Assembly (NCBI GenBank): GCA_016199245.1
Contig: JACQHC010000128.1
Location: 1-32,410 of the forward strand
From: Gemmatimonadota bacterium
Lineage (GTDB): Bacteria; Gemmatimonadota; Gemmatimonadetes; Gemmatimonadales; GWC2-71-9
Reading direction: 5' to 3'
DNA: 32,410 bases
Shown: in pieces, positions 3,532 through 32,409 of the stretch
Layout of the letters: every line of letters starts with the position of its first letter
Position numbering within the stretch: position 1 is the stretch's first letter
The notes under the pieces: generated by a model
What the model saw: only the letters and a program-made list of their open reading frames with translations
The model's database searches: none
What the model was told of the DNA's origin: nothing
Position numbers and translations under genes: made by a program

Positions 3532-6147
3532 GTGAACGTCCGGTCCGCCACCTCGCGCTCGATGTGTGTCGTCGGAACACTCACGCTCGGGTTTGCGGGT
3601 GCCCTGGTGGCACAGGACCATCCCGCAGTCCCCAGATTCGAGATCGCCGAATCCCCCCTGACGCTCCGCGGCGACGCGCGTCCCCACCAATACCTCGGCG
3701 CCATCGGGCGCCGTGCCGCGTGGCTCGGCACGGAAACGGGGCCCGCCGAGTTGTGGGTCCACCCCTACAAGCTGGCCGACGATTTCCAGCTCACGTTCCG
3801 CATTCCGGATTACGTCGACCCCGTGCGCGGCGTGGACGTGGCCCGCCGGGTCGAGATCCGGCCGGCCCTCACCACGATCACCTACTCGCACGCCACGTTC
3901 ACCGTGCGGCAGCACATCCTGGCGCCGCTGGACGAGGCCGGACTGTTGGTCCTGCTCGACGTCCGAACGCTCCGGCCGCTCGAAATCGGCGTGAGCTTCC
4001 GGATGGTGTTCCAGTACGCCTGGCCGGGCGCGTTCGGCGGTCAATACACGTTCTGGGACGCTGACACGCGGGCGTTCATTCTCTCGGAGAGTCGCCGCCA
4101 GCAGAACGCGATCATCGGGTCGCCCTGGGCAACGGCGGCATCGGACCATCCGGCGCACGCCCTGCCAGACGCGCCCAACACGTTTGTCATCGCGGTGGAC
4201 ACGGCACGGGCGCGATCCGAGTTCATCCCTATTGCGATCGCGGCCGGCACTGGACCGCGGGACAGCGTGCTCGCGATCTACCACCAATTGCTCGCGGGCG
4301 CGGAGAGCCTCTACCGCGCACGGGAATATCACGCACGCCGACTACTGGATGGTTCGGTGGCGATCGATACGCCCGACGACAGCCTCGACCTCGCGCTCGC
4401 GTGGTCCACGCTGGCGTTGGACGAGCAAATGGTCTGCAACCCGGACCTCGGCTGCGGCTTGGTGGCCGGCTGGGGACGCTCCGGCAAGAGCACGCGACCG
4501 GGATTCGGATGGTTCTTCGGCGGCGACGCGGCGGTCAACTCGCTGGCCATGGACGCGGTCGGGCTGTGGTCGCCGGTGGCGGAAGGCCTGCGGTTCCTCG
4601 CCCGGTACCAACGTGCCGACGGCAAGATCCCTCACGAGATCTCGCAGGCCGCCGCGCGGATTCCCTGGTTCACCGACTTCCCGTATGCGTACTACCACGC
4701 CGACACGACGCCCTACTGGATCCTGGCGGTGTGGCGCTACTGGCGCGCGAGCGGAGACGAGGCCCTGCTCCGGGACCTCTGGCCCGCGGTCAAGAAGGGA
4801 TACGCGTGGTGCAAGACAACGGAAACCGACGGGGACGGCATCATCGAGAACACCACTGGGGGGCTCGGAGCGATCGAAGTCGGGGCGATCGGGGAGGGTA
4901 TCCACCAGGACATCTACCTCGCGTCCGTCTGGATCGAGGCGCTCGCCGCCGTGCGCGACATGGCCGGCACACTGCGCGAACGCGCGCTGGCCGACGAGAC
5001 CGCCCGCCTGCGCGAGACCGCGCTCGCCACGCTGAACCGCAGGTACTGGCGCGAAGCCGAGGGGCATCACGCCTTCGGGATCCTCCGCTCGGGCGAGACC
5101 AACAACACCCTGACCGTCTGGCCCGCCACCGCCGCGGCGTTCGGCGCGCTCGAACCGGAGCGCGCGCGGCGCACGCTGGCACGGCTCGCCTCGGACGTCA
5201 TCTCCGCCGATTGGGGCGCCCGGATGCTCTCGACCGCCAGCCCGCTCTACGACCCGATGCACTACAACATGGGCGCGGTCTGGCCATTCGTTACCGGATT
5301 CGTGATCTGGGGCCAGTACAACTACGATCGCCCCTGGGCGGGGTTCCCGCTGCTCGACGCGTTGAAGCGACTCACCTTCCACTGGGCGCCGGGACGGCAT
5401 CCCGAGCTGCTGTCGGGACGGTTCTATCGTCCGCTTGATACGGCCGTGCCGCATCAGTTCTTCGCCACGTCCATGCTCGTTTCACCGCTGATGTACGGGC
5501 TGCTGGGCTGGGAACCGGACGCGCCGCGCCGTCGAGCCGTCCTCGCTCCGCAGCTGCCGCCGAACTGGCCACGCGCCGGGGTGGATCGGTTGCGGGTCGG
5601 CGGCGCCAGTGTCTCCGCCGCGGTCGAACAATCTGCGGGCCGGCAGGTGATTCGCCTGTCTGCCAACGGCGGACCCGTAGACGTCATCGTCACGCCCGTG
5701 CTGCCGCCCGGAGCGGGGGCGTCGCGCGTGACGCTCGACGGCGCCGCGCGCGAGGTAACGCCGCAGCCCGGACTCCGTCCGGACCGGCCCGGATTCGTAG
5801 TGAGCGTGGACCGGGCAGTCCGCACCGTGGAAATCACCTGGCGGGGCGGCCTCACGGTAGCGCCGCCGATCGTGGCGCTGACGCCCGGCCAGGAGAGCGA
5901 GGGGCTCCGCGTGCTGGATTTCCAGTCAGCGGGCGAGACGTGGTCACTCGATCTCGAGGGCGCCGCGGGCAGAACGTATGAGGTGACGTTGCATGGCGTG
6001 CCAGTCCGCCCGAACCTCGCAGGCGAGGTTACCGTGGTGCGACGCGAAGCGGCGCAAACCACGCTCGCGGTGCGCTTCCCCTCCGGCAGCGGGCGGCGGG
6101 CGCTGACCGTCACGCTCACGCCCGATGGACGAGAGGGGTCCCGGTGA
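3532..6147 (+). CDS. Secreted six-hairpin glycoside hydrolase / glycogen-debranching-like protein
   Basis: 871 aa, N-terminal signal-like region; WFFGGDAAVNSLAMDAVG...RYQRADGKIPHEISQAA...YYHADTTPYWILAVWRYWRASGD typical of (alpha/alpha)6 glucosidases. Confidence 0.75.
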   Translation: MNVRSATSRSMCVVGTLTLGFAGALVAQDHPAVPRFEIAESPLTLRGDARPHQYLGAIGRRAAWLGTETGPAELWVHPYKLADDFQLTFRIPDYVDPVRGVDVARRVEIRPALTTITYSHATFTVRQHILAPLDEAGLLVLLDVRTLRPLEIGVSFRMVFQYAWPGAFGGQYTFWDADTRAFILSESRRQQNAIIGSPWATAASDHPAHALPDAPNTFVIAVDTARARSEFIPIAIAAGTGPRDSVLAIYHQLLAGAESLYRAREYHARRLLDGSVAIDTPDDSLDLALAWSTLALDEQMVCNPDLGCGLVAGWGRSGKSTRPGFGWFFGGDAAVNSLAMDAVGLWSPVAEGLRFLARYQRADGKIPHEISQAAARIPWFTDFPYAYYHADTTPYWILAVWRYWRASGDEALLRDLWPAVKKGYAWCKTTETDGDGIIENTTGGLGAIEVGAIGEGIHQDIYLASVWIEALAAVRDMAGTLRERALADETARLRETALATLNRRYWREAEGHHAFGILRSGETNNTLTVWPATAAAFGALEPERARRTLARLASDVISADWGARMLSTASPLYDPMHYNMGAVWPFVTGFVIWGQYNYDRPWAGFPLLDALKRLTFHWAPGRHPELLSGRFYRPLDTAVPHQFFATSMLVSPLMYGLLGWEPDAPRRRAVLAPQLPPNWPRAGVDRLRVGGASVSAAVEQSAGRQVIRLSANGGPVDVIVTPVLPPGAGASRVTLDGAAREVTPQPGLRPDRPGFVVSVDRAVRTVEITWRGGLTVAPPIVALTPGQESEGLRVLDFQSAGETWSLDLEGAAGRTYEVTLHGVPVRPNLAGEVTVVRREAAQTTLAVRFPSGSGRRALTVTLTPDGREGSR

Positions 6148-7868
6148 CGCTCGAGCTTCCCGACCTGTTGCGCCGCGCGCGCGGCGACGAGCCCGCCGAC
6201 CTGCTGCTCAAGAACGCGCAGGTCGTCAACGTGTTCGCCGGTGAGGTCCATGCGGCCGACGTCGCGATCGCCGGCTCCACGATCGTCGGCGTGGGCAGCG
6301 GGTGGGAGGCGCGGCAGGTCGTCGACCTCGAAGGCCGGCACGTCGCGCCCGGGTTCATCGATGCCCACGTTCACATCGAAAGCGCGATGGTGCCGCCACG
6401 CGAGTTCGCCCGAGCCGTCGTGCCGCGGGGCGTCACGACCGCGGTGACCGACCCGCACGAGATCGCCAACGTCTCTGGGCTCACCGGTATCCGTTTCATG
6501 CTGGCCAACGCGCGCGGCGCGCCGTTCACCATGTTCGTGAACGCGTCTTCCTGCGTGCCCGCCACGCACATGGAGACGTCAGGGGCGGCACTCACGGCCG
6601 CCGACCTCGCGAGCCTCCGCGAGGAGCCGGAGGTGCTCGGGCTCGCCGAGGTGATGAACTTCCCGGGCGTGGTGTTCGGCGACCCAGATGTCTTGGCCAA
6701 GCTCGCAGTCTTCCGGGACCGCGTGATAGACGGGCATTGCCCCGGCCTGTCGGGCCGCCAGCTCAACGCGTACGCGGCGACGGGCATCAGCTCCGACCAC
6801 GAGTGCACCACGGTAGAGGAGGCGCGCGAGAAGCTCCGCCTGGGCATGACCATCTTCCTGCGTGAGGCGACCAACGCGCACAACCTGCAGACGTTGCTCC
6901 CGCTCGTCACGCGGGACAACGAACGCCGGTTCTGCTTCTGCACCGACGACCGCGTCCCCGCGGACCTGCTGACCGAGGGATCCATCGACCATCTGGTGCG
7001 CCTGGCCATCGCCGCGGGGCTCTCGCCGGTGACGGCGATCCGGATGGCCACGCTGAACGTCGCCGAGCACTTTCGCCTGCGCGACCGCGGAGCCGTGGCG
7101 CCGGGCCGGCGGGCGGACCTCATCGTGTTCGACGACCTCGCGTGTCCCCAGCCGGACCTCGTGTACGTGAGTGGCCAACTCGTCGCGAGCGGAGGTCGCC
7201 TGCTCGACGGCACTACTGCCCCTCATGCCGCTCATGCCGCTGTTTCCAACACCGTCCACGTCGACTGGTCCCGCGTAGACCTGCGCATTCCCGCCGCAGG
7301 AAAGCGCGTGCGGGTGGTCGGCGCGATTCCCGATCAGATCGTGACCGGGCACGAGATCATGGACGCCAAGGTGGAGAGCGGCGAAGCTGTGGCGGATCCG
7401 GCACGAGACCTGTTGAAGATGGCCGTGATCGAGCGACACGGCCGGCGTGGCAGCGTGGGCCGCGGATTCGTCAAAGGGGTCGGCCTCTCGCGCGGCGCCA
7501 TCGCCGGCACGGTGGCGCACGACCATCACAATCTCGTCGTGATCGGCGCCGACGACGTATCGATGCTGACCGCCGCGCGGGCGGTCGCCGCGGCGGGCGG
7601 GGGACAGGCCGTCGCCGAAGCAGACCAGGTGCGGGCGCTGCTTCCGCTCCCGATCGCGGGGCTGATGTCGGACCTTCCCATCGAAACCGTGCGGGATCGC
7701 ATGGCGGACCTGATCGGCGCCGCGCGCGCCCTCGGCAGCCGGTTGCACGATCCGTTCATGGCGATGAGCTTTCTCGCGCTGGAAGTGATCCCGAAACTCA
7801 AGCTGACCGACATCGGCCTGGTGGACGTCGAGCGCTTCGCCCCGGTTCCCCTGTTCATCGAGGACTAA
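6144..7868 (+). CDS. ade: Adenine deaminase
   Basis: HVAPGFIDAHVHIESAMVPPREFARAVVPRGVTTAVTDPHEIANVSG; start overlaps upstream stop (GTGA). Confidence 0.92.
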   Translation: MTLELPDLLRRARGDEPADLLLKNAQVVNVFAGEVHAADVAIAGSTIVGVGSGWEARQVVDLEGRHVAPGFIDAHVHIESAMVPPREFARAVVPRGVTTAVTDPHEIANVSGLTGIRFMLANARGAPFTMFVNASSCVPATHMETSGAALTAADLASLREEPEVLGLAEVMNFPGVVFGDPDVLAKLAVFRDRVIDGHCPGLSGRQLNAYAATGISSDHECTTVEEAREKLRLGMTIFLREATNAHNLQTLLPLVTRDNERRFCFCTDDRVPADLLTEGSIDHLVRLAIAAGLSPVTAIRMATLNVAEHFRLRDRGAVAPGRRADLIVFDDLACPQPDLVYVSGQLVASGGRLLDGTTAPHAAHAAVSNTVHVDWSRVDLRIPAAGKRVRVVGAIPDQIVTGHEIMDAKVESGEAVADPARDLLKMAVIERHGRRGSVGRGFVKGVGLSRGAIAGTVAHDHHNLVVIGADDVSMLTAARAVAAAGGGQAVAEADQVRALLPLPIAGLMSDLPIETVRDRMADLIGAARALGSRLHDPFMAMSFLALEVIPKLKLTDIGLVDVERFAPVPLFIED

Positions 7869-7877
7869 CCACCTGTC

Positions 7878-8417
7878 ATGACGACCCAGCCCAAGACCCT
7901 GATCTCCGAACAGGCGATCGCCGAGAAGGTGGCCGGGCTCGGCGCTCAGATTTCCCGCGACTACGCCGGCGTGGACAGCCTCATGCTGGTGGGTGTGCTC
8001 AAGGGCTCGTTCATCTTCCTGGCGGACCTTTCGCGCCGGCTCACGATTCCCCACACCGTCGATTTCATCGCGCTCTCGAGCTACGGCAACGCCACGACGC
8101 GGGCCACCGGTGAGGTGCGGCTGATGATGGACCTCCGCACCACGATCGCGGGCAAGCACGTGTTGATCGTCGAGGACATCGTGGACACGGGCCACACGCT
8201 CGACTACTTGATGCGGCTGCTCGGCGCCCGGGAACCGGCCTCGCTCAAGGCGTGTGCCCTGGTGCGCAAGCCGGATCGGCGTGAAGTGGACGTCGAGCTG
8301 TCGTACATCGGCTTCGATATTCCCAACAAGTGGGTGGTGGGCTACGGGCTCGATTTCGCGGACAAGTTCCGCACGCTGCCCTACATCGGCTATGTGGACG
8401 ACGCCCGCGCGAGCTGA
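7878..8417 (+). CDS. hpt: Hypoxanthine phosphoribosyltransferase
   Basis: GVLKGSFIFLADLSRRL...VLIVEDIVDTGHTLDYL...VVGYGLDFADKFRTLPYIGYV. Confidence 0.93.
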   Translation: MTTQPKTLISEQAIAEKVAGLGAQISRDYAGVDSLMLVGVLKGSFIFLADLSRRLTIPHTVDFIALSSYGNATTRATGEVRLMMDLRTTIAGKHVLIVEDIVDTGHTLDYLMRLLGAREPASLKACALVRKPDRREVDVELSYIGFDIPNKWVVGYGLDFADKFRTLPYIGYVDDARAS

Positions 8418-14770: not shown

Positions 14771-14925
14771 CGTGATCCTCTAGACTTTGGGGGGTCGGGT
14801 AAGTAATCCCACTCGAGGATCGAAATCAACCGCCGCGTACGGCGACCCCCGCGGGGAATGGGGCGCGGGGTGCATCGAGAAAGCAGCTTTTGCGACGCCA
14901 TTGGGCTCGCCAGAAGGTAGGTCGC

Positions 14926-16176
14926 GTGAGGGGAAACGATTCCGAGATTCGCCGTCGCATCCAGCGATGGCATCGCACCGGGGATATGGGAGCGCTGTGG
15001 CCGGAGTTCTCCGTCGCCGAACTGCTCGCGGGCCACGGCGCGGTCTGTGCGACGACGCGAGCGATGCTGCGAGAGCCGAGTGCCACGGCGACGCTCGAGG
15101 CGACCAGTGAGCGCGAGTCGGCCGCGCTCGGCATCGCCGCTTTTGAGTCGGGCATGGGGCCGCTGCTCGGGTGGTGGGTCGAGCGTGGCCTCGTGACCGC
15201 CTCCACCGGCGCGCGCCAGGTGCTGGCCGTCCACCTGGAGCACGGCAGACGCAGGATCGCCGCCATTCGGCAGGCGCTGACGGCGATTCTCCAAGCGCTG
15301 CATTCGGAGGGCGTCATTCCGGTGTTATTGAAAGGCCTGCACGTGGGCAGCGAGTATTTCCCCGAGCCTGGCACGTGCCCTGCGGGCGACATTGACCTGC
15401 TCGTACACCCATCGGAGCGCGACGCGGCAGCCGCCGGCCTGCGGCGGGCCGGCCTGCGGGAATCGCGGCGAACGGTGTACGGGGCGCGGTCAGAGTGGGT
15501 TCCCGATGGTCGGGCGCAGGTGGTGCATTCCCTGGAGTTCGACCACGCGGACAATCCCTTCGCGGTGGATCTGCACACGGGACTCGAGCGCTGGTATTTC
15601 CGCGGCGTTCGCGCCGGATTTGGTGAATCGGCGTTCGCGCACACGACGCCGATCGTCGTGGACGGCAGCACGGTTCGGGCATTGGACCAGCCGCTCCTTA
15701 CGGCATTCCTGGCGTTGCACACGAGCTCCGAGCTGGCACGCATGCGCCTCGTGCGGCTGGTTGAGCTGACCGTCGTGATACAGCGTGACCGCCGGAGCGG
15801 GGTGCTCGACTGGACCGCGCTGGGGGGGCTGCTGCACAGGACGGGGACGGCGCGATTCGTCTTTCCCGCGCTCGCGCTGGTTGAACGGTTGTGTCCCGGG
15901 ACGGTCGAGAATACGCTCATCGCGCGGAGCCAACCGTATCTCACCAATCGTATGCTGCGCGTCATCGAGGCGGTTGCCGCGGCGGACATGGCTCCGCTGA
16001 GGTATCGGTCGCTCGAGGAACGACTGGTGTGGGCTCGGGGAGCGCGCGAGCTGTTGCTGAACCTATCGGAGCTCGTGTGGCCGACCGATGACGGCTTGCC
16101 CGTCAGCGTGGGTCGCCTGCAGTGGAGGCGCGTTCGTGCGCTGGTGCGAGGCAGGGTGGGGTTGCGGGCGCGGTAG
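14926..16176 (+). CDS. NTP_transf_5-type nucleotidyltransferase family protein (paralog 1)
   Basis: VIPVLLKGLHVGSEYFPEPGTCPAGDIDLLVHPSERDAAAAGLRRAGL; C-terminal RSLEERLVWARGARELLLNLSELVWP. Confidence 0.8.
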   Translation: MRGNDSEIRRRIQRWHRTGDMGALWPEFSVAELLAGHGAVCATTRAMLREPSATATLEATSERESAALGIAAFESGMGPLLGWWVERGLVTASTGARQVLAVHLEHGRRRIAAIRQALTAILQALHSEGVIPVLLKGLHVGSEYFPEPGTCPAGDIDLLVHPSERDAAAAGLRRAGLRESRRTVYGARSEWVPDGRAQVVHSLEFDHADNPFAVDLHTGLERWYFRGVRAGFGESAFAHTTPIVVDGSTVRALDQPLLTAFLALHTSSELARMRLVRLVELTVVIQRDRRSGVLDWTALGGLLHRTGTARFVFPALALVERLCPGTVENTLIARSQPYLTNRMLRVIEAVAAADMAPLRYRSLEERLVWARGARELLLNLSELVWPTDDGLPVSVGRLQWRRVRALVRGRVGLRAR

Positions 16177-20464: not shown

Positions 20465-21570
20465 TCAGCGGGTTGGCAGCCTTCGGAGCGTATGATCCGC
20501 GGGCTCGTGCGCACACGCTGGAGGAGCTCCACGGCTGCATCCACCACGAGTCCAGGCTCAAGATCCGCCAGGCACGACCGGTCCCACCCGCCCTCACACT
20601 TCCCGTGCATGCAGACACCATCCGGTTGCGTGCAGGCGAGCACCAGCTCGCTGAAGGTGCCGTGTGGCCGGGCCCAGACCCAGCGACTCGCGCCGAATAG
20701 CCCGATGGTGGGTACGCCGAGCGCCCACGCGACGTGCATCAGACCGCCGTCTTCGGACACCGCCAGCACACACCGCTTGATGATCGCCGCCGCTTCCACC
20801 TGCGACGCGTGCCCGACAAGGTCAACCATTTGATCGCCAAGAGCGACCTTCAGCGCGTCCGTCTTGTCCCGGATTCCCGGAAGACCCGTGACCACAAATT
20901 GGGTCGGGTGCCCGCGACGGGCCGCGAATTCGCGAGCGAAGGACACGTATGCTGCGACCGGCCATTGGCGGTCCGGAAACGCGCCGCCGGGATTGAGCAG
21001 GACCAAATCATTCCCCCGCCTCCAGCCGCCCCGCGCAAGCTGCTCGGATCCCGCTTCCGGGTTGGTCAACTGGAGGCCAGGCAGGACCTCGGCCACGCCG
21101 ACTCCCGCCGCTTCAATCGTTCGGCGAGTTCGCTCGCCGGCCGGGGACGGCGAATACCGATCAAACTCCACCCAAGCGGTCGGCCCGAGGAGCATTCGCA
21201 CCAGCCGACTGACGCGGTTGCGCTGAAGGTCCAGAACGACCTGATAGCGGCCAAGCAACAAACGCGGCAAGAGGCCCAGGGCACTGAGCAGCTGCCGCCG
21301 ATAGCGCCGACCGCCGCCGATCTCGAACACCCGGTCGAATAGACGAACGCCCTTCGGAATGGCCGCCACTTCTTGGCGCGTCAGGAAGTCGAGCGTCACG
21401 TTCGGAAGCGTGCGTCGCACCGCATGCAGGTAGGGTAATGTGAGCACCGTGTCGCCCAGCCCTTGCAGGCGAATGGCGAGAATGCGGGACGGAGGTCCCG
21501 GGCCGCGCCAGGGACGGGCGTTGATGTCCTCGCTCGCCGGAACGCGGCCGGCGGCCGCGACGTGCGTCAG
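20461..21570 (-). CDS. Glycosyltransferase family 9 (heptosyltransferase-like); start codon uncertain
   Basis: ILAIRLQGLGDTVLTLPYLHAVRRTLPNVTLDFLTRQEV...DLVLLNPGGAFPDRQWPVAAYVSFARE...VLAVSEDGGLMHVAWALGVPTIGLFG. Confidence 0.85.
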   Translation of the reverse strand: MTHVAAAGRVPASEDINARPWRGPGPPSRILAIRLQGLGDTVLTLPYLHAVRRTLPNVTLDFLTRQEVAAIPKGVRLFDRVFEIGGGRRYRRQLLSALGLLPRLLLGRYQVVLDLQRNRVSRLVRMLLGPTAWVEFDRYSPSPAGERTRRTIEAAGVGVAEVLPGLQLTNPEAGSEQLARGGWRRGNDLVLLNPGGAFPDRQWPVAAYVSFAREFAARRGHPTQFVVTGLPGIRDKTDALKVALGDQMVDLVGHASQVEAAAIIKRCVLAVSEDGGLMHVAWALGVPTIGLFGASRWVWARPHGTFSELVLACTQPDGVCMHGKCEGGWDRSCLADLEPGLVVDAAVELLQRVRTSPRIIRSEGCQPAE

Positions 21571-22541
21571 CTTCCCTCCTCCAGCTCCGCCACGACTCCA
21601 TCGAGCAGGGGCACGGCCGCTAACGGCGAGCCCCCGAGGGTGAGCCGCCATCCACCGCCCGACGCGAGCGCCGCTGCGCGGGAGCGGATGGTGTCGGCGT
21701 AGAGGTCGAAGCCGGACTCGAGGTGTCCGGTGAGTTCGGCGACTACGACGTCCGAGGGGACTCGCTCGAGCGTCGGCTGGTCTCCGACGCCCGGCTTCAG
21801 CAGGCACACGGCCACGTGCTCCGCATACTGGCGGTGCTCGCCCGGAGAAACGACCACCTTGGTCTTGCCGGTCGCGAGCGTCGTGGGCTGCATCCCGCGC
21901 AGCTCCGGAAAGTGCTCCAGCGCCCCGATCGGAAGGTGGATCCGCGACCGCCGACCCCAAATACGCAGTTGGGGACGAAGTTGCACGTACACCGCCTCGT
22001 CCGCCAGCACGGTGTAGCCGGCGCGCCGTGCTGCATACGTGAGGGTGCTCTTCCCCGAACCGCCGGGGCCGGCGAGCACGATCGCGACGGAGCGCCGAAC
22101 GATGGCGGCCGCGTGCAGGGGCTGTCGATCCTGGGAACCCAGCAGAAACAGGGTCAGCGGCTCGAGCAGGCCGTCTGCGAACTCGGCCGATCGCGCCACC
22201 ACGCGCGTCGTAGTGTACACCACGGCGTCTAGACGCTTCGTGTCCGCCACGCCAGCGGTGCCGGGCGCCATGACCAAGAGCCGCTCCGCATCCAACAGCC
22301 GGTACTGGACCGCCGGTCCGTCCCTGAAGGTCTCATCACTGTCGTGGACGATGATCCGCACGCGGGCGCTCGACGGCGTGACCAGGCCGGCACCGTCAGT
22401 CAACGCGTTCCAGGCGCCGTACGTCTGTCGTACGGCCTCTAGGACGGAAGGAGCGTTGCTGGCGAACCTCGTCAGGATGCCGAGGACGGGTAGCTGCGCC
22501 GTATGAGAAAGCGCCACGTTGCGGTACAGCGAATCGGTCAT
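21567..22541 (-). CDS. HPr kinase-like protein (HprK-related)
   Basis: PLHAAAIVRRSVAIVLAGPGGSGKSTLTYAARRAGYTVLADEAVYV: Walker A and context of HprK-like kinases. Confidence 0.8.
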   Translation of the reverse strand: MTDSLYRNVALSHTAQLPVLGILTRFASNAPSVLEAVRQTYGAWNALTDGAGLVTPSSARVRIIVHDSDETFRDGPAVQYRLLDAERLLVMAPGTAGVADTKRLDAVVYTTTRVVARSAEFADGLLEPLTLFLLGSQDRQPLHAAAIVRRSVAIVLAGPGGSGKSTLTYAARRAGYTVLADEAVYVQLRPQLRIWGRRSRIHLPIGALEHFPELRGMQPTTLATGKTKVVVSPGEHRQYAEHVAVCLLKPGVGDQPTLERVPSDVVVAELTGHLESGFDLYADTIRSRAAALASGGGWRLTLGGSPLAAVPLLDGVVAELEEGS

Positions 22542-22653: not shown

Positions 22654-23667
22654 ATGAGACCAATAACCGTATCGGCCGTGATCCCGACTCGGAACAGGCC
22701 AGGGAGTCTGCGCCGGACTCTCACGGCGCTCGCGGCCCAGGAACGCCTGCCGGACGAAGTGATCGTGGCCGACGCGAGTGACCGGCCGTCGGACATCGAC
22801 GCGCTCGCCGCCGCACACCCGCCGCTGTCCCTCAGGTCCTTCCACACAGCGCCATCCGTCTGCGCGCAGCGCAACGAAGCCATCCGCCGGGCCGGCGGGT
22901 CCCACATCTTTCTCTGCGACGATGATATTGAGCCACCTCCCGAATACCTCCGGCGCCTCGAGGCGTATCTTGTACACCATTGCGAGGTAGGCGCCGTCAC
23001 GGGAGTAATTTCCGAGCCCGACGCTGCCGGGCACTTTTCAGACCCCTTCCCGGTGCCCGGCTTGCGACAGCTGGTAACCAGTTTTGTCGCCCAGCGCACG
23101 GTGTGGGCAGACGTCGAAGCGACGACCGGAACTGCGTTTACCGCGCTGCCTCTCGCGCTGCTCAAGGGATGGTACCGCCGGCGCGGGAACACATGGTCCC
23201 TGGCCGGGTGGCCCCTGGTGACCCAGGTTAACGCGCCGATCGCACGGACGGCCATTTACGGGCTTGGGGCCGCGCTCGTGCGCCGGGACTGGCTCCTGGC
23301 GTCGCCGTACGACGAACGCCTGGGGTCGCACGGAATTGGCGACAATTATGGCGTGGCACTGGGGTTCCCCGGCGACCGCGCCATTATTCTCCTCACGGAT
23401 CTGCCGGTGCGCCACCACAAGGCGCAGGACAACAGACTCGAAAGCCTGAGCGCACAGTACCGGCGTGTTCTCGCACTCCATTACTTCATGCGGCGCAGCT
23501 CGAGGTTTTCCAGCCTCAACGTGGCGTTCCTCGTGTGGTCGCTGATGGCCAGCGCCGCCGCCCACGGCATTCGCGGTCGCGGAGATCCGTTCCGCATCAC
23601 GATTCGTGCGCTTCGGGTCATCGTCACCGGGCGGAATCCCCTGCTGGGGGGCCGGACGGCGGCGTGA
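22654..23667 (+). CDS. GT2 family glycosyltransferase
   Basis: MRPITVSAVIPTRNRPGSLRRTLTALAAQERLPDEVIVADAS...IFLCDDDIEPPPEYL. Confidence 0.85.
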   Translation: MRPITVSAVIPTRNRPGSLRRTLTALAAQERLPDEVIVADASDRPSDIDALAAAHPPLSLRSFHTAPSVCAQRNEAIRRAGGSHIFLCDDDIEPPPEYLRRLEAYLVHHCEVGAVTGVISEPDAAGHFSDPFPVPGLRQLVTSFVAQRTVWADVEATTGTAFTALPLALLKGWYRRRGNTWSLAGWPLVTQVNAPIARTAIYGLGAALVRRDWLLASPYDERLGSHGIGDNYGVALGFPGDRAIILLTDLPVRHHKAQDNRLESLSAQYRRVLALHYFMRRSSRFSSLNVAFLVWSLMASAAAHGIRGRGDPFRITIRALRVIVTGRNPLLGGRTAA

Positions 23668-23689
23668 CCGCCAGCCCATCGCCTCGATC

Positions 23690-24817
23690 GTGAGGATCGC
23701 CCTGGTGGTACCGGGCGGCGTGAGCCGCGACGGGGAATACCGCGTCATTCCGGTGCTCCTGTGGCTCATCGAGCGCTTGGCGCACCGGCACGATGTCCAC
23801 GTGGTGACGTTCCGCCAAGAAGCTGTGCCCGCGTCGTGGCCGCTGCTCGGGGCGACGGTGCACAACGTCGGCCGTCGACCCCGAAGCGTGCGGGCTCTCA
23901 GGATCTTGCTCCACCTACACAGATCGAAACCGTTTGACGTGTTTCACTCCATCTGGGCAGGCGGCCCCGGCCTCGCCGCGTTCGCAGCCGCCCGGCTCTG
24001 TCGCAAGCCGGTCCTGGTCCACGTTGCGGGCGGTGAGCTGGTGTGGATGCCCGAGCTCGAGTTCGGCGCCGCGCGCCGGGCGTGGTGGCGAGCATTGACC
24101 CGAATGGTCCTGCGCGGCGCCGACGTGGTGACGGCGGCCAGTACCTCGATGGTCGCGCTGGCGCGGGCGGCTGGCGCGGCACCGAGACGGGTGACGCTCG
24201 GGGTCGACACCGATCAATGGACCCCGTCGCCGCCTCGCGCCCGCCCGCTCGATCGTCCGGCGAGGCTGGTGCAGGTCGCGAGCCTCACCCCTGTGAAGGA
24301 CCAAACGACACTCCTGCGGGGGCTCGCGCGGCTCGTGGCCGACGGACGCTCCGTCCACCTCAACCTCGTCGGCGAAGACGCGTACCAAGGCGCGATGCAG
24401 CGGGAGGCGGCCGAGCTGGGTGTCACCCCCCACGTGAGCTTCGATGGATTCCTTCCCCAGCGCAAGGTCATCCCGGTGGTACGGGCGGCGGACCTGATGG
24501 TGGTGTCCTCGCGACATGAGGCCGGACCCGTCGCTCTCCTCGAAGCCGCAGCCGTCGGCGTGCCGACGGTGGGGACGGCCGTAGGCCATGTCCGGGACTT
24601 CGCGCCGGACGCCGCGGTCGCCGTGCCGATCGGAGATCCCGTTGCGCTCGCTCGGGAAGTCGGTCGCCTGCTGGACGACGAGCCGCGACGACTCGCGCTC
24701 GCGGCTCAGGCGCAGCACCGGGCCCTGAGCGAGGACGCCGACTGGACGTGCGCGCGGTTCGAGGAGCTGTACCGCGACGTCACCAGCCGGCGTCCGGCTC
24801 GCGGGATCCTCCGGTGA
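23690..24817 (+). CDS. GT4 family glycosyltransferase
   Basis: RLVQVASLTPVKDQTTLLRGLARL...HVSFDGFLPQRKVIPVVRAADLMVVSSRHEAGPVALLEAAAVGVPTVGT. Confidence 0.88.
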   Translation: MRIALVVPGGVSRDGEYRVIPVLLWLIERLAHRHDVHVVTFRQEAVPASWPLLGATVHNVGRRPRSVRALRILLHLHRSKPFDVFHSIWAGGPGLAAFAAARLCRKPVLVHVAGGELVWMPELEFGAARRAWWRALTRMVLRGADVVTAASTSMVALARAAGAAPRRVTLGVDTDQWTPSPPRARPLDRPARLVQVASLTPVKDQTTLLRGLARLVADGRSVHLNLVGEDAYQGAMQREAAELGVTPHVSFDGFLPQRKVIPVVRAADLMVVSSRHEAGPVALLEAAAVGVPTVGTAVGHVRDFAPDAAVAVPIGDPVALAREVGRLLDDEPRRLALAAQAQHRALSEDADWTCARFEELYRDVTSRRPARGILR

Positions 24818-25560
24818 CTTCCCGAACCCCGCTGTCCTGTTCGCCAGCGCCGCGGGACCAGCCGACCGCCGCCGATCGCGTGGCCCGGTGGAATGCGACA
24901 GGCAACCCACAGGACCTGTGGCCGGCAAGCAGCCCGGAGGACAGGCTGGCGGCCCATCGGCTCGTGTCTGCCACCGCGCGCGCGGTGCTCAGTGGTGAGC
25001 AACCCCCACCGCTGCAACTGCCGAGACCGGAGGCCTTGGCCGCCATGGGGGCGGCGGCGTTCGTGTCCGGACTCGGGCCGCTGCTGGGCTACTGGATCGA
25101 GCGGGGAACCGTCGAGGCCCCCGCCAGCGTGGCGGATCTTGTCCGGGCACACTACGCGTCCGCTGCCCGGAGAAGCGCCCGGCTCACCGCGGCCACGCTG
25201 GAGATTCTCGACCGGGGCGCTGAGCGCGGGCTGGCGTTCATCCTCCTCAAAGGCATGCATACGGCCCACGAGTACTTCCCGGATCCGGGCACGCGACCGG
25301 CGGCTGACGTCGATGTGCTGGTGGCACCCGGAGACGCCGGGGCGGCGGAGGAGTTGCTCGCACAGCTCGGGTTCGACGAAATGCGCCCAGCGACCGACGG
25401 CACCCGATCTGAATGGTACAGGCGCGGCGTGGCCAGAATGCCTATCACGCTCGACGCGGAACACGAGGACAACCGGTGGGCCGTCGACCTTCATTTTGCC
25501 CTGACCCGTCGCTACTACCGCGGCCTCAGGGCGGGGTTGCCGCAACCAGTGGCGCATGAA

Positions 25561-26643
25561 CTAGTGGACCGTAACTGAAATGCGTGAAGCACGAATGCGA
25601 CGCTTGGGGTCGCGATATCGCCACAGGAAGGGCTGACAGGTCGCGTTATGGAGCTTGATGTACTGGAGCAGCTTCTTCCGCAAGTCGGTCGTGGAGGTGA
25701 AGATGCCGCGGGCGATGCAGTCGCGCTCGATCTTAGCAAACCAGAGCTCAACTTGGTTCAGCCAACTGCTGTACGTCGGGGTGTAGTGGATGGTGACGCG
25801 CGGGTGCGCGCCGAGCCACGCTTGCACGGGGTTGGCTTTGTGGGCGCTCAGGTTGTCGGCGATGATGTGAATGGGCTTGCCCCGGGGCTGGGTGGCGACC
25901 ACCTGATCGAGAAAGTCGACGAACGCCAGGGCCGTGTGGCGCGGCACCGTATCGCCCAGCACGCGTCCCGTGTGCACATTGAGCGCGGCATAGAGGGAGA
26001 GCGTGCCGTGGCGGACGTACTCGAACCCGTGGCGCTCGGCGCGGCCGGGCGAGAGCGGCAGGACCGGGGTGGTGCGATCCAGGGCTTGGATCGCGGTCTT
26101 CTCGTCCACGCACAAGACCGCCGCGTGCTGCGGCGGATTCAGATAGAGCCCGATAATGTCCGCGGCCTTCCGCTCGAAGTCCGGATCGGGACTCTCCGTG
26201 TAGCGTTCGACGCGGTGCGGCCGGAGGCCGGCGCGCTGCCAGACCCGCGCGATCGTCATGTGACTGACGCCGAGCCGCTTGCCCAAGCGCCGCGTGGTCC
26301 AGTGCGTCAGCGGTGCGGGAGGAGCCTGATGCAGCGTGACCTCCAAGATCTTCGCCTCCAGCGCCGGACTCAGCGCGTGGCCGCGCCCGGCCCGCGGGGC
26401 ATCGCCGAGCGCCAATATCCCGCCCTCCAGGTATCGCCGCTTCCACATCGCGATGAAGCGATCGGTGACACCCAGCCGCGCCCCAATCGCCGCATAGCTC
26501 TCGCCGTCGGCCACCGCGAGCATCACGCGGGCGCGCCGGGCAATGGCCTGGCTGAGGGTGGTTTGTCGGAGCAGCTGCTCGAGCTCGTGCCGCTCGGCGG
26601 AAGCCAGCGTGAGGTCCATCGTGGGCGTAAACATACCGCCCAC
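25561..26643 (-). CDS. IS630-family transposase
   Basis: N-terminal HTH and DDE region: VLCVDEKTAIQALDR...IHIIADNLSAHK...YTPTYSSWLNQVELWFAKIERD. Confidence 0.95.
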   Translation of the reverse strand: MGGMFTPTMDLTLASAERHELEQLLRQTTLSQAIARRARVMLAVADGESYAAIGARLGVTDRFIAMWKRRYLEGGILALGDAPRAGRGHALSPALEAKILEVTLHQAPPAPLTHWTTRRLGKRLGVSHMTIARVWQRAGLRPHRVERYTESPDPDFERKAADIIGLYLNPPQHAAVLCVDEKTAIQALDRTTPVLPLSPGRAERHGFEYVRHGTLSLYAALNVHTGRVLGDTVPRHTALAFVDFLDQVVATQPRGKPIHIIADNLSAHKANPVQAWLGAHPRVTIHYTPTYSSWLNQVELWFAKIERDCIARGIFTSTTDLRKKLLQYIKLHNATCQPFLWRYRDPKRRIRASRISVTVH

Positions 26644-26685
26644 CGCTGCAAGTCGTGTGCTATAAACATCTCAGTTACGATCCAC
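25564..26685 (-). mobile_element. IS630-type insertion sequence with TA target duplication
   Basis: Terminal inverted repeats GTGGACCGTAACTGAAATG / GTGGATCGTAACTGAGATG (17/19 match) flanked by TA at 25562-25563 and 26686-26687. Confidence 0.92.
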
Positions 26686-27388
26686 TAGGAGTCCTGCCGC
26701 TTCATGGGCGCGCGGTCCCAGTACTCCGCCACCTCGCGCTCATCACCTTTCTGGCGCAGCATGCAGCTCACAACCCCAGGTACTTCCGCGCGATACGGCT
26801 CGGGGAACTTGCGCTCGTGATCCGTCGCGACACGGCGCGTGGCACTCTTCGCTGGGACGAGCTGATGCTGTTTCTAGCGGAAACTGGAACGCTGCGGTTC
26901 GCGTACCCGGCCCTCGAACTGGCCGAACGATTCGTTCCTGGGACCGTGGATTCAGTTTTGCGACAAGAAATCGGCCGGTGCGTGCCGCCGCGCATGCGTC
27001 GGGTCGTTTGAGCGATCGAACTCAGTGACATGACACTGCCCCGCGCGTCGGTTGAGGCACGCCTCATGTGGGCGAGCGGACCCGCAGAGCTCTTGATGGC
27101 CCTGAGTGACCTCGTGTGGCCTGCGGGCGTGCCTCTCACGTGGGCGAACGTCAACCTGCTCTATGGCCGGTGGCTCCGGATGGCCGCCGGTGGGCGCCTT
27201 TCGCTGCGCGCCAAACGGTAACCAGACCAGAAGTCGGTCTCGCCCTGGCTCTCGACTCTGGTTAAGCTACGTGGGGCGGACCGCCCCAGCCGAACGAGCC
27301 CCGGGGGGTACACGGAAAGTGTGTCGCCAAGCGAGCGCTATGACTCACGGTGTCGATGCGACATTCGGCAGCCAGGAGGGTAGACTAG

Positions 27389-28816
27389 ATGCACTCTGCC
27401 TCGTTGGAATCTCCTCGCATTCTGCTCGCGCACTCGTACTACCTGGCCTACGACCCGAAGCAGACGCAGAAGATGCGGCCGTATCCGCCGCTCGCCACGC
27501 TCATCACCGCGTCGGTCCTCCGGCAACACGGCTATGAGGTCGACCTGTTCGATGCCATGTTGGCACGCGGCGTCGAAGCTTTCCATTCTCAGGTCGATGC
27601 CATGCACCCGTCGATCGTCGCCATCGTCGAGGACAACTTCAATTTCCTCACGAAGATGTGCACGCTCAGAATGCGCGAGGCGGCGTTGGACATGGTCGCG
27701 TCCGCGCGCGCGGCCGGGGCCCGGGTTGTCGTCAATGGCTCGGATGCCGCAGACCGCCCCGACCTGTACCTCGTGGCAGGGGCCGATGCCGTCATTCCGG
27801 GGGATCCCGAGCCCGCGGTTCTCGACCTCGTCGCCGCGTGGACCGGCTCCAATGGGCTGAAGGCGGAGGCCGTACCGGGGATCATCATCGCCGCGCCCCA
27901 GAACGGCGAGACCCGGCGCACCGCGCCGCGCCCCGCTCTCGACGATCTGGACCACCTCCCGTTCCCCGCGTGGGACCTCCTGGACGCAGGCAGTTATCGG
28001 CGGGCGTGGACCGCAGCACACGGGCGACTGTCGTGGAACATGGCGACGTCGCGCGGCTGCCCCTATCGGTGCAACTGGTGCGCCAAGCCACTGTTCGGGA
28101 AGCGGTACGCGCAGCGCTCGCCGGAGAACGTCGCTGGTGAGCTAGACGAGCTCCGACACGCGATCGCACCGGACCACGTGTGGTTCGCCGATGACATCTT
28201 CGGCCTCACGCCGGCATGGATCGAGGCATTCGCCCGAGCCGTTTCGGCCCGGGGCGCACGGACGCCGTTCACCATGCAATCGCGGGCGAATCTGATGAAA
28301 CCGCGCGCGGTCGCGGCCCTGGCCGAGGCCGGGGCGGAAGAGGTTTGGCTGGGGGTCGAGTCCGGCTCGCAGCAGATCCTGAATGCGATGGACAAAGGCA
28401 CCACGGTGGCTCAGGTGCGAGAGGCGACGCGGGAACTCCGCCGACACGGTATCCGATGCGGCTGGTTCATCCAGCTGGGCTATCGTGGCGAGCAGTGGCC
28501 GGATCTCGTCGCGACGCGCAACCTGGTGCGCGACGAGTGGCCCGACGACATCGGCGTGTCGGTTTCGTATCCCCTCCCTGGCACCAAGTTCTACGAGCAG
28601 GTGCGCACCGAGCTCGGGCGGAAAACCAATTGGGCGGACAGCGATGATCTTGCCATGATGTTCCGAGGTACGTACGTGACCGAATTCTACAAGCGCGTGC
28701 GTGACCTCCTCCACACCGAGGTCCGAGCACGTCAGGCCCGCGACGCCGAGTGGGATGCGTTGGAGCGGCATGAGCCGGACAGCCGATCTCCAGCTGGATA
28801 TCCCGCGCCCCCATGA
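27389..28816 (+). CDS. B12-binding domain radical SAM protein
   Basis: N-terminal cobalamin-domain-like region; MATSRGCPYRCNWCAKPLFG (CxxxCxxC), VWFADDIFGLTP, VWLGVESGSQQILNAMDKGTT. Confidence 0.9.
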   Translation: MHSASLESPRILLAHSYYLAYDPKQTQKMRPYPPLATLITASVLRQHGYEVDLFDAMLARGVEAFHSQVDAMHPSIVAIVEDNFNFLTKMCTLRMREAALDMVASARAAGARVVVNGSDAADRPDLYLVAGADAVIPGDPEPAVLDLVAAWTGSNGLKAEAVPGIIIAAPQNGETRRTAPRPALDDLDHLPFPAWDLLDAGSYRRAWTAAHGRLSWNMATSRGCPYRCNWCAKPLFGKRYAQRSPENVAGELDELRHAIAPDHVWFADDIFGLTPAWIEAFARAVSARGARTPFTMQSRANLMKPRAVAALAEAGAEEVWLGVESGSQQILNAMDKGTTVAQVREATRELRRHGIRCGWFIQLGYRGEQWPDLVATRNLVRDEWPDDIGVSVSYPLPGTKFYEQVRTELGRKTNWADSDDLAMMFRGTYVTEFYKRVRDLLHTEVRARQARDAEWDALERHEPDSRSPAGYPAPP

Positions 28817-29658
28817 CCGCCCGTACGTCGCGCCCGGCCGACAGCGACGTCCTGCCGCCGGCCGTGGTGGCGTTCGATGCCGTCGCGCCGCAGTTCGATC
28901 AGCGGTATGGCCAATGGGCCAGCGTGCGGGCACAGCGACGGGCCGTCCAGAAGGAGTTGCTGCGGGCATTTCCCCCCGACGCGGCGCTCCTTGAGCTCGG
29001 GGGCGGGACCGGGGACGACGCGATTCACCTCGCCTCACGGGGCCGGCGCGTGCTGCTCACCGATGGCTCGCGTTCCATGCTTGCGTGCGCCCAGGCGAAA
29101 ATCCGGGACGCCCGCTTGGAGCATCGCATCACGACGCACGCAATCACGCTCGAGCGCCTCCGCGACCTGCCCAGAACCATGATTCCGTCCATGCCGGTGA
29201 GGTTCGACGGCGCCTACTCCAACTTCGCGGCGTTCAACTGCATCACGGATCTCGCGGGGGTGGCGTCTGACCTGGCCGACCTGCTGCGGCCTGGTGCACC
29301 GGTGTTACTCGTAATCTTCGGGCCCGTATCGGTTGGCGAAGTGCTGGTGCAACTCTGGAAGGGCGATGCTCGTGCCGCGTTCCGCCGACTGTCCTCCGGC
29401 GACATCCCCGCGCGGGTCGCTGGACGAGAGTTCACGGTTCGCTATCCCTCCCCCCGGCAGGTCGCGGATCGGTTCGCGCCATGGTTTCGGCTGGTCCGCA
29501 CGCGGGGCGTCGGCATCTTCGTGCCGCCCAGCGCGGCTGAGCCATCCATCTCCCGCTTCCCCCGGTTGCTCGCCATTCTGGAGGCGCTCGATCGGGGCGC
29601 CTCGGCTCCCCTGGCGTTGCTCGCGGACCACGTCCTGCTGCAATTCGAGCGTGTCTGA
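28813..29658 (+). CDS. Class I SAM-dependent methyltransferase
   Basis: AALLELGGGTGDDAIHLASRGRRVLLTDGSRSML; ATGA overlap with radical SAM gene. Confidence 0.88.
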   Translation: MTARTSRPADSDVLPPAVVAFDAVAPQFDQRYGQWASVRAQRRAVQKELLRAFPPDAALLELGGGTGDDAIHLASRGRRVLLTDGSRSMLACAQAKIRDARLEHRITTHAITLERLRDLPRTMIPSMPVRFDGAYSNFAAFNCITDLAGVASDLADLLRPGAPVLLVIFGPVSVGEVLVQLWKGDARAAFRRLSSGDIPARVAGREFTVRYPSPRQVADRFAPWFRLVRTRGVGIFVPPSAAEPSISRFPRLLAILEALDRGASAPLALLADHVLLQFERV

Positions 29659-30790
29659 CGGGGAATCCCGGCGAGTGCGGCCCTTCGTGCTCCGGGCTGA
29701 GAATGGCAGCCGCGTCGTCATCAGTGACGGCGAGATCAGTCAACCGGGGGATCGCCTGGGCGACACGTATGATCTCGGACCCGGTACGTTTCATGCTGGC
29801 CTGATCAACGCCCACGACCACCTGTTCCGGAATCACTACCCCAGACTGGGGGCGCCGCCTTACAGAAACGCCTACGAGTGGGGGAATGACATTCACGTGC
29901 GGTGGGCCGAAGAGATCCGACGCATGCAGGCTCTCCCCCGCAGAGAAGCGCTGCTGTTCGGAGCCTTGAAGAATCTGCTAGGTGCGGTCACCACCGTGGT
30001 GCATCACGATCCCTGGGACGACGCGCTGGCGGCGGACTTCCCGGTGCGAGTAGTCCGGATTCGCGTCGCGCATTCCCTCGGTCTCGAGCACGACCTCCCA
30101 CACGCCGTCGCGGGAGACGAACACACCCGAGACCGACCGTTGTCGATGCACCTCGCCGAAGGCGTCGATGCCGTCGCGGTCGCCGAAGTCCGTGAGGCGG
30201 AGCGCCGAGACCTGCTGGGCGGGGACCTCGTAGCGGTGCACCTCGTGGGCGTGGACCGCGACGCAATCGCCCGCATTCGGGCGACAGGAACCGCGGTGGC
30301 CTGGTGCCCCACGTCGAATCGCTTTCTATTCGACCGCACGGCTCCGGGCGAACTGTTTCAGCCCGGCATCGACGTCCTACTCGGCACGGACGCGCTCCTT
30401 ACGGCGGACGGAACAATGCTGGCGGAGCTCCACGAGGCACGCCGCCTGGGGCATCTGGACGATCAGCGCCTCCGAGAAGCGGTCGGTCGGGTGGCTGCCC
30501 GCAGGTTGCGGGTGCCCGAGCCGGCGCTGGCGCCCGGATATCCCGCGGATGTGGTGTTTCTCCGCCGACCGCTCTTTGAAGCGCGCCCTGCCGATGTCGC
30601 GCTGGTCCTCGTAGGCGGCGTTCCGCGACTCGCGGACGAGCAGTTCGCCGAACTGTTCGGCCATTGCGGCGTCCCCGCCGAACCGTTAGACGCCATCGGG
30701 ACACGCAAGCTCGTGGCGGCGCCGCTCGGAACTGTGGCCCGCCGCGTGTTCGATCTGTCGCCTCAGTGTCAGCGGGTGCTGGAATGGTAG
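29651..30790 (+). CDS. Amidohydrolase family protein
   Basis: GTFHAGLINAHDHLFRNHYPRLG...TTVVHHDPW...PLSMHLAEG...VAWCPTSNRFLFDRTAPGELFQPGIDVLLGTDALLTADGTMLAEL. Confidence 0.88.
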   Translation: MSDGESRRVRPFVLRAENGSRVVISDGEISQPGDRLGDTYDLGPGTFHAGLINAHDHLFRNHYPRLGAPPYRNAYEWGNDIHVRWAEEIRRMQALPRREALLFGALKNLLGAVTTVVHHDPWDDALAADFPVRVVRIRVAHSLGLEHDLPHAVAGDEHTRDRPLSMHLAEGVDAVAVAEVREAERRDLLGGDLVAVHLVGVDRDAIARIRATGTAVAWCPTSNRFLFDRTAPGELFQPGIDVLLGTDALLTADGTMLAELHEARRLGHLDDQRLREAVGRVAARRLRVPEPALAPGYPADVVFLRRPLFEARPADVALVLVGGVPRLADEQFAELFGHCGVPAEPLDAIGTRKLVAAPLGTVARRVFDLSPQCQRVLEW

Positions 30791-30993
30791 GCCGCCGATC
30801 AGACCTGTCACGGCGTCGTCTCGTACACGAACGGGAAATCGAGGAGCTGCCTTCGCGGCAGGCCCACCGCGGTGTATGGCTGACCGGAAACTTTAGCCCG
30901 CTTGACCCTGAGAACAACAGCAGACCGGACCGCCGTCTGCCTGAAGAGGCATTGGGCGGCGCCCTCCGGACTTCACTCATTAGCGTCGCGTAA
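30784..30993 (+). CDS. Hypothetical 69-aa small protein, translationally coupled to the amidohydrolase
   Basis: ATG overlaps amidohydrolase stop (ATGGTAG); MVGRRSDLSRRRLVHEREIEELPSRQAHRGVWLTGNFSPLDPENNSRPDRRLPEEALGGALRTSLISVA*. Confidence 0.4.
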   Translation: MVGRRSDLSRRRLVHEREIEELPSRQAHRGVWLTGNFSPLDPENNSRPDRRLPEEALGGALRTSLISVA

Positions 30994-31005
30994 CGGAGGG
31001 GCCAC

Positions 31006-31758
31006 ACGCCGCCACGCAGCTCGGACGCCAAATCGCGAGCCCTGGCGACAGACGCGCCGGAGCTGCTTCCGCCGCGAGAGGCCTACCGGCTCTGGGCACC
31101 GCACTACGAGGTCGAAACGGCTATCAGCGCCCTCGACGAGCTGGCAGTCGCAGAGTTGACGCCCCCGCTACAGGGCCTGGCTCTGCTGGACGCCGGTTGC
31201 GGAACTGGGAGGCGCCTTCCGGCGGTCTCGTCTCACGGACCCCATCGCGTCGTTGGTATCGACCTGGTGCGCGAAATGCTGGAGGTCGGCCGGCGCCTGC
31301 GAGGCCGCGACATACGCGTCTCGGTGGCTGACGTCAGAGCCCTGCCGTTTCCCACCCGGACCTTCGACGTGGTCTGGTGCCGTCTCGTGCTGGGTCATAC
31401 GCAGCGCCTCGATCCGGCCTATCAGGAGTTCTTCCGCGTCACTAAGCCCGGAGGGTCCTTGACTGTCACCGATTTCCACGCTGAAGCCGTGGCAGCCGGC
31501 CACGTCCGAACGTTCCGAGACGTCGACGGAGTCGTGCACGCCGTGGAAACGCAGCCACACACTGCAGAGGACCACCGGCAAGCGGCGGCAAGCGCGGGTT
31601 TCCTGCTCACAACCGCTCGTGATTGCCGCGTCGGACCGGAGGTGCGGAACTTCTGGCTGCAGGCGGGGGCGCTCGAACGCTACGAGGCCCAACTCGGCAC
31701 GCCCTTACTGCTGGCGCTCCGCTTCGCTAAGGAACGCCGGCGTGGCTCGCAGGGGTGA
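31006..31758 (+). CDS. Class I SAM-dependent methyltransferase (BioC-like N-terminus), non-canonical or lost start codon
   Basis: EAYRLWAPHYEVETAISALDELA...LALLDAGCGTGRRLPAV...LPFPTRTFDVVWCRLVLGHTQRLDPAYQEFFRVTKPGGSLTVTDFH; SD GGAGG at 30995-30999 but no ATG/GTG/TTG near it. Confidence 0.75.
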   Translation, partial: TPPRSSDAKSRALATDAPELLPPREAYRLWAPHYEVETAISALDELAVAELTPPLQGLALLDAGCGTGRRLPAVSSHGPHRVVGIDLVREMLEVGRRLRGRDIRVSVADVRALPFPTRTFDVVWCRLVLGHTQRLDPAYQEFFRVTKPGGSLTVTDFHAEAVAAGHVRTFRDVDGVVHAVETQPHTAEDHRQAAASAGFLLTTARDCRVGPEVRNFWLQAGALERYEAQLGTPLLLALRFAKERRRGSQG

Positions 31759-32409
31759 TCGGGCCTGAACGAGCCGGCCGAGGTCCCCGGCGCGGCGGCT
31801 CCCCGCAAGCCGTGTCACCACCAACCGCCACCCCAGCAACCCCACCAGTACCAGCCCGTACGTCACCGGCCGCCGCACATCCGCCTTCACCAACCACAGG
31901 AAATGCAGCACGCCGAGCGCCGCGGCCACGTACACCAACTGATGCAACCGCTGCCACCGCTTCGAGCCAAGACGCTTGACCCACCCCGCCGTGGAGGTCA
32001 CGGCGAGCGGCACCAGCATCACGAAGGCCGTGAAACCCACGGTGACGTACGGCCGCTTGGCGATGTCCTCGAGCACGATCCCCATGCTCAGTCCCTCGCC
32101 CGAGAACACCGCACGATCCAGCCAATAGATCGTGAAATGCAGCGTCGCATAGAAGAACACGTACAATCCGAACATCCGCCGCACGTGCACCAGGGCGTTC
32201 AAACTCAGCAGCCGCCGCAGCGGCGTGACGCCGAGCGTAATCGCGAGGAAGGTGAGCGCCGTGAGCCCGGTGCGGTGCGTGATCTCCTCGATGGGATTGG
32301 CGCCCAGGTCCGACCGAATGATGTCCCGCACGAGATCGGCCAACGGCAAAAGAGACGCCCCGAACGCCACGGGCTTTACGACGCGCTGAATCCACTGGCC
32401 CTGCGTCAT
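31705..32409 (-). CDS. msrQ: MsrQ-like heme-binding ferric-reductase-like membrane protein
   Basis: NPIEEITHRTGLTALTFLAITLGVTPLRRL...HVRRMFGLYVFFYATLHFTIYWLDRA...WQRLHQLVYVAAALGVLHFLWLVKAD. Confidence 0.88.
   Translation of the reverse strand: MTQGQWIQRVVKPVAFGASLLPLADLVRDIIRSDLGANPIEEITHRTGLTALTFLAITLGVTPLRRLLSLNALVHVRRMFGLYVFFYATLHFTIYWLDRAVFSGEGLSMGIVLEDIAKRPYVTVGFTAFVMLVPLAVTSTAGWVKRLGSKRWQRLHQLVYVAAALGVLHFLWLVKADVRRPVTYGLVLVGLLGWRLVVTRLAGSRRAGDLGRLVQARSPLRATPAFLSEAERQQ

Follow-up and report, generated by a model that had tools for sequence, protein, structure and literature searches.

The 32,410-nucleotide contig JACQHC010000128.1 of a Gemmatimonadota bacterium (assembly GCA_016199245.1), referred to here as the window, carries one copy of a gene cassette that is genuine and conserved across very different bacteria. 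The copy comprises four of the five genes that a preliminary description of this DNA had read as a tightly overlapping operon: a radical S-adenosylmethionine (SAM) gene (rSAM-A), two methyltransferase genes (MT1 and MT2) and an amidohydrolase gene (AH). That these genes constitute a conserved pathway is almost certain. At evenly balanced confidence, we favour a reading in which their products act jointly to modify a sugar, or a group linked to one, that glycosyltransferases would build into an exported glycan or glycoconjugate; the cassette would thus be the source of an unusual, methylated unit of a secreted sugar coat.

The window is one whole contig of a 2.58 Mb genome (197 contigs, 67% complete). 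Re-reading its open reading frames (ORFs) and junctions confirmed the overlapping gene string and its coordinates: all five frames run head to tail, with overlaps of 4 bp (rSAM-A and MT1), 8 bp (MT1 and AH) and 7 bp (AH and a 69-aa ORF). An ATG preceded by the Shine–Dalgarno (SD) sequence AGGAGG opens rSAM-A; MT1 and the 69-aa ORF also start with ATG, and AH with GTG. Third-position G+C favours coding for the rSAM-A, MT1 and AH frames, and a plus-strand scan for promoters and terminators gave no signal above chance level.

Conservation of the cassette across phyla

We screened 246 genomes of the class for rSAM-A (E ≤ 1e-60) and for AH orthologues (E ≤ 1e-40). rSAM-A was found in 14 genomes, at up to 64% identity, and AH in 10, all of which also hold rSAM-A (hypergeometric probability ~5e-15, with genomes treated as independent though not fully so). 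Across the phylum the distribution of rSAM-A is patchy (17/298 genomes). A profile scan of 84,980 species genomes returned at least 561 candidate relatives, the best 80 of which, not a random sample, come from Gemmatimonadota, Acidobacteriota, Pseudomonadota, Chloroflexota, Bacteroidota, Ignavibacteriota and Planctomycetota.

Gene profiles were run over 96 related loci with mechanical gene calls, the profiles being built from the same loci that the presence counts use; loci L050 and L057, for example, share their contigs with class members G179 and G136. After removal of duplicates, 50 loci had at least 7.5 kb either side of rSAM-A. Near rSAM-A in this set we found MT1 (42/50), MT2 (35/50), a second radical SAM gene with the motif CPxGCxFCGV (rSAM-B; 33/50) and AH (32/50), and MT2 was present in all 32 loci with AH. 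These five genes form the recurrent set, joined occasionally by a third methyltransferase (MT3), a radical SAM C (~36% identical to rSAM-A) and a SPASM-like radical SAM (SP19). With A, B and C denoting the radical SAM genes, the longest form, D17-A-C-MT1-MT3-B-MT2-AH-SP19, occurs in Acidobacteriota. Xanthomonadaceae have the transcription order MT1-AH-MT2-B-GT4b-GT4a (GT, glycosyltransferase), in which MT1-AH-MT2 is ordered as in the window, and five Xanthomonas loci lack rSAM-B, as the window does.

The A-MT1 junction is a 4-bp overlap in 15 of 35 cases, and AH and MT2 overlap by 1 to 13 bp in 17 of 19. Because several phyla show this tight adjacency of A-MT1, MT1-AH and AH-MT2, the genes either overlapping or standing a few bp apart, their coupling is beyond chance. 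The proposal that the genes serve one pathway is thus strongly supported: order and overlaps recur in Gemmatimonadota, Pseudomonadota and Acidobacteriota, and comparison of gene order across genomes found linked homologues rather than scattered ones.

In a tree of rSAM-A, the window falls among 25 rows of Gemmatimonadota, Alphaproteobacteria and two Acidobacteriota (99% support in the Shimodaira–Hasegawa-like approximate likelihood ratio test). Sphingomonas and Caulobacter rows nest within this group, apart from Xanthomonadaceae. Together with the patchy distribution of rSAM-A, this nesting suggests horizontal transfer of an apparently mobile accessory cassette. Plasmid records gave only distant radical SAM matches (≤30% identity among the matches listed). 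No paper on this cassette was found in the open-licence PMC literature, a search that leaves most subscription journals uncovered; one biofilm screen in Xanthomonas lists a radical SAM hit but deals with a 68-aa plasmid ORF that is unrelated.

The 69-aa ORF, proposed as a small member of the operon, was not borne out. Searches with tblastn and blastn across the 96 loci gave no convincing homologue (best tblastn E = 0.08), and neither Pfam nor NCBIfam returned a match. It is probably not a gene and, since it lacks a convincing homologue, its 7-bp overlap with AH is probably meaningless. AH and MT2 overlap in Xanthomonadaceae, and the spacer of ~215 bp between them in the window is an exception among related junctions.

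A strong SD had also been described before MT2. The SD is indeed present (GGAGGGG, 30995-31001), but the codon it points to, and hence the apparent start, is an ACG at 31006 and not ATG, GTG or TTG. The MT2 frame is free of stops from 30994 to 31758 and its conserved N-terminus (REAYRLWAPHY...) begins at ~31085, yet no canonical start lies in frame before that N-terminus, the first being a TTG at 31156. The start of MT2 may therefore be a non-canonical codon, a mutation or a sequence error.

Predicted enzymes of the cassette

The families assigned in the preliminary description (a radical SAM enzyme, two methyltransferases and an amidohydrolase) agree with Pfam, although the B12-binding and Amidohydro_1 matches fall below cut-off. 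rSAM-A matches Radical_SAM at 69.3 bits and, weakly, the B12-binding domain PF02310 (26 bits versus a cut-off of 32.1). Its cluster motif, CPYRCNWC, occupies residues 224-231, and the cysteines C224, C228 and C231 (CxxxCxxC) are invariant across 40 homologues. The structure model (predicted local distance difference test (pLDDT) score 89.9) ranks cobalamin-type radical SAM enzymes first among its fold matches (MgmA, TsrM, AprD4, OxsB, CysS and TokK), and all of the top 15 share the N-terminal Rossmann-like B12-binding architecture.

The best TM-score was obtained with AprD4 (0.72/0.75), which also leads the profile matches in the PDB (E = 1.6e-28). AprD4 is a radical SAM 1,2-diol dehydratase of apramycin biosynthesis whose structure was solved with a pseudodisaccharide substrate (PDB 6fd2). 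It has a two-domain layout in common with rSAM-A but, like MgmA and TsrM, is only ~20% identical to it; the NCBIfam AprD4 model gives 67.6 bits where its cut-off is 500, and no aminoglycoside genes were seen here.

No NCBIfam curated cut-off was reached by rSAM-A, the best score being 102 of 360 bits (TIGR04014, MgmA), and assignment as an equivalog of BchE, HpnJ, AprD4, MgmA, TIGR04295 or the ribosomal-peptide enzyme rSAM_ocin was rejected on these scores. The BchE, HpnJ and TIGR04295 models, all of B12-binding type, match 40 of 40 rSAM-A homologues, BchE being the best model across the family (best E = 2e-52), but the window protein scores 99.8 of 481, 95 of 578 and 82 of 400 bits, respectively, and the rSAM-A family has motifs of its own (the cluster motif CNWCAKP, EDNFNxLTKMC and NGSDA). 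The radical SAM gene thus did not fall into a well-characterised unrelated subfamily; such a placement would have spoken against a shared pathway.

Among NCBIfam models, CpaM is nearest to MT1, with a score far under cut-off. Some Gemmatimonadota carry MT1 as a fusion with another methyltransferase-like domain (L036:10140-11843, L034 and L042; ORFs of 561-579 aa), which supports placing both in one pathway.

AH matches Amidohydro_1 at 19.6 bits (cut-off 25). Its metal ligands and catalytic glutamate (H55/H57, H167, E170, H197 and D247) are fully conserved in 34 homologues, and its model (pLDDT 95.6) shows the COG0402 deaminase fold with every metal ligand present, identifying AH, at the level of a structure model, as a COG0402-type amidohydrolase/deaminase. 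The nearest PDB folds and profiles are deaminases of methylthioadenosine (MTA), S-adenosylhomocysteine (SAH) and adenosine (4dyk, 4gbd, 4f0r/4f0s). With the MTA/SAH and 8-oxoguanine-type deaminases (4dyk, 4gbd, 4f0r, 7ww2), AH shares the fold, the HxH...H..E...H...D set and CPxSN.

These nearest matches raise the alternative that AH has no part in building the product and deaminates 5'-deoxyadenosine, MTA or SAH left over from the radical SAM and methyltransferase reactions. Such a role would fit a PNP_UDP_1 nucleoside phosphorylase gene near A-MT1 in three Anaerolineales loci (L103, L117 and L120), the product of which could clear 5'-deoxyadenosine or MTA, and a cytidine-deaminase-type gene near A-MT1 in Bacteroidota and Ignavibacteriota. 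However, AH is only 17-20% identical to the known deaminases and ~60-70 residues shorter; their substrate-binding half does not align with it in sequence, and in profile alignments the region before the third histidine fails to align with MTA/SAH deaminases beyond the HxH stretch. Scores against curated NCBIfam models are far from cut-off (8-oxoguanine deaminase, 39 of 532 bits; TRZ/ATZ, 33.6 of 540). Membership of the MTA/SAH or 8-oxoguanine deaminase families was rejected, as the fold fits but the cut-offs and pocket alignment do not, and we consider a by-product role somewhat unlikely.

Polysaccharide neighbourhood and the window copy

Around rSAM-A, the 50 loci frequently carry a nucleotidyltransferase gene (NTP_transf_5 or a nucleotidyltransferase-like gene, NTx; 40/50), an HprK-like kinase (35/50), GT4a (35/50), GT4b (30/50) and an ATP-binding cassette (ABC) exporter (29/50). 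Wzz occurs in Xanthomonadaceae loci, ligase/Wzy-like genes were recognized by reading in Xanthomonadaceae and Acidobacteriota, and Wzx-like and O-antigen-ligase-like genes occur in several groups. Chloroflexota and Bacteroidota copies are flanked by Wzy_C, glycosyltransferases and polysaccharide flippases, and polysaccharide genes accompany rSAM-A also in groups that keep only A-MT1. Related loci combine nearby glycosyltransferases with a flippase, polymerase or ligase, the composition of a Wzx/Wzy-type polysaccharide locus.

NTx (~330 aa, motif GS...DIDF) is found in Chloroflexota, Bacteroidota and Ignavibacteriota (L081, L100, L126 and others), directly upstream of rSAM-A and often overlapping it by 4 bp. 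One member scanned had no Pfam match, 13 had none in NCBIfam, and no PDB hit was significant; kinship with NTP_transf_5 was not shown (hhalign probability 0.6%).

The window itself contains NTP_transf_5 genes, the HprK-like gene, GT2, GT4 and GT9 glycosyltransferases and a sulfotransferase (Table 1); no flippase or polymerase was identified within it. The IS630-family element has near-identical 14-bp terminal inverted repeats (TGGACCGTAACTGA / TGGATCGTAACTGA), with a CTAG target repeat on both sides. Because it and a frame change break the second NTP_transf_5 gene, the copy in the window looks reduced or in decay. rSAM-B is absent from the window, and a search of its 67%-complete genome returned rSAM-A itself as the sole match.

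Table 1. Features of the cassette and its surroundings in the window
Feature	Position	Strand	Basis
rSAM-A, radical SAM with putative B12-binding-type N-terminal domain, 475 aa	27389..28816	+	Pfam Radical_SAM, fold model
MT1, class I SAM methyltransferase, 281 aa	28813..29658	+	Methyltransf_25/12/11 (Pfam)
AH, COG0402 deaminase-type amidohydrolase, 379 aa	29651..30790	+	Metal residues, model, Amidohydro_1
69-aa ORF, probably no gene	30784..30993	+	No convincing homologue, no Pfam or NCBIfam match
MT2, class I SAM methyltransferase, including its SD	30995..31758	+	Methyltransf_11 81.9 bits, N-terminal homology
GT4 glycosyltransferase, GT4a of the conserved neighbourhood	23606..24817	+	GT4a profile 526 bits
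HprK-like kinase of the conserved neighbourhood	21567..22541	-	HprK profile 245 bits; no Pfam match at E 0.001
NTP_transf_5 nucleotidyltransferase, first copy, uninterrupted	14890..16176	+	Profile 300 bits
NTP_transf_5 gene, second copy, interrupted by IS630 element, frame changed once more downstream	24748..27221	+	Pfam/profile and reading
IS630-family element	25565..26684	-	NCBIfam transpos_IS630 249 bits

Adenine deaminase and phosphoribosyltransferase genes lie at 6144-8417, ~19 kb upstream of the cassette. Bacterium HR33 (L035) has this pair ahead of its cassette as well, which extends synteny with that relative beyond the cassette. A ferric-reductase-like membrane protein gene (31705-32409, minus strand) overlaps the end of MT2 and is also found nearby in L035 and L039.

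Candidate products of the pathway

On the basis of the polysaccharide-gene neighbours and the resemblance of rSAM-A to AprD4, we assign the cassette, at the even confidence given above, to tailoring of an exported glycan. In this proposal, rSAM-A would carry out a radical C-methylation or dehydration on a sugar-linked substrate and MT1 and MT2 would add O- or N-methyl groups, while AH would hydrolyse a C-N bond on an intermediate or remove 5'-deoxyadenosine or SAH by-products. The neighbouring nucleotidyltransferase, kinase and GT4 enzymes would activate and transfer the product, and ABC or Wzx/Wzy-type machinery would export the glycan.

Several points weigh against this assignment. The functions of the cassette enzymes are all predictions from sequence and fold. 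B12 binding by rSAM-A is putative, as its sequence has no DxHxxG motif and its Pfam match is below cut-off, and the fold does not fix the substrate because AprD4, MgmA and TsrM are so distant in sequence. Distances between cassette genes correlate (r 0.78-0.95), as is partly expected from common descent. Finally, in the Acidobacteriota loci L116 and L123 no glycosyltransferases stand directly beside the cassette, which fits a free small molecule or cofactor.

Mainly on account of these two loci, the principal rival has the cassette convert a primary metabolite into a free small molecule, either a secondary metabolite or a cofactor-like compound, which the ABC transporter would export; the glycan genes would then be incidental or serve to glycosylate this molecule. 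In the Solibacteraceae locus L116, the run A-C-MT1-MT3-B-MT2-AH-SP19 lies between unrelated housekeeping-looking genes, and runs of up to five radical SAM and three methyltransferase genes (L066 and L062) would be rich for a glycan ornament. The patchy distribution, with Alphaproteobacteria nested in a Gemmatimonadota-rich clade, is also consistent with such a product. Polysaccharide genes, however, lie near rSAM-A in most loci of several phyla, even where only A-MT1 is kept, and we judge this alternative unlikely.

Tailoring of a ribosomally synthesized and post-translationally modified peptide (RiPP) whose precursor would be encoded by the 69-aa ORF is very improbable. The lasso peptide pseudomycoidin is served by a putative kinase, PsmK, and a nucleotidyltransferase, PsmN (PMC9266682), and similarly annotated genes and, in many loci, an ABC exporter lie beside the cassette, a likeness of annotation and not of sequence; but neither a precursor peptide nor an Asn-synthase cyclase was found near the cassette. 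No conserved small ORF accompanies it across the related loci, and an SGGxDS search of all loci found no Asn-synthase-like cyclase (lasso C protein) nearby, the single match (279 aa, in L098) being of unusual size for a lasso cyclase and outside the cassette. Against RiPP radical SAM models, rSAM-A stays far from the cut-off (rSAM_ocin_1, 67.5 of 281.85 bits). The missing conservation of the 69-aa ORF and the absence of conserved small ORFs and of a nearby cyclase led us to reject this version. Of the earlier suggestion of small-molecule or RiPP tailoring, the RiPP half is accordingly unsupported, while small-molecule or sugar tailoring still fits; an exported glycan had not been foreseen.

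Extending the glycan assignment, we tentatively propose, at less than even confidence, an undescribed pathway in which between one and five radical SAM enzymes, with two or three methyltransferases and one amidohydrolase, would produce a new sugar- or nucleoside-derived residue of surface glycans. Its hosts would belong to several phyla and range from Gemmatimonadota and Acidobacteriota of soil to Sphingomonas, Caulobacter and Xanthomonas. In our judgement, the radical SAM enzymes that act in loci for bacterial surface polysaccharides have received little study. The cassette may offer a new substrate class for amidohydrolases, and the presence of this apparently transferable unit, with its small fixed core, in cultivable Sphingomonas, Caulobacter, Rhodanobacter and Dyella makes its function open to direct testing.

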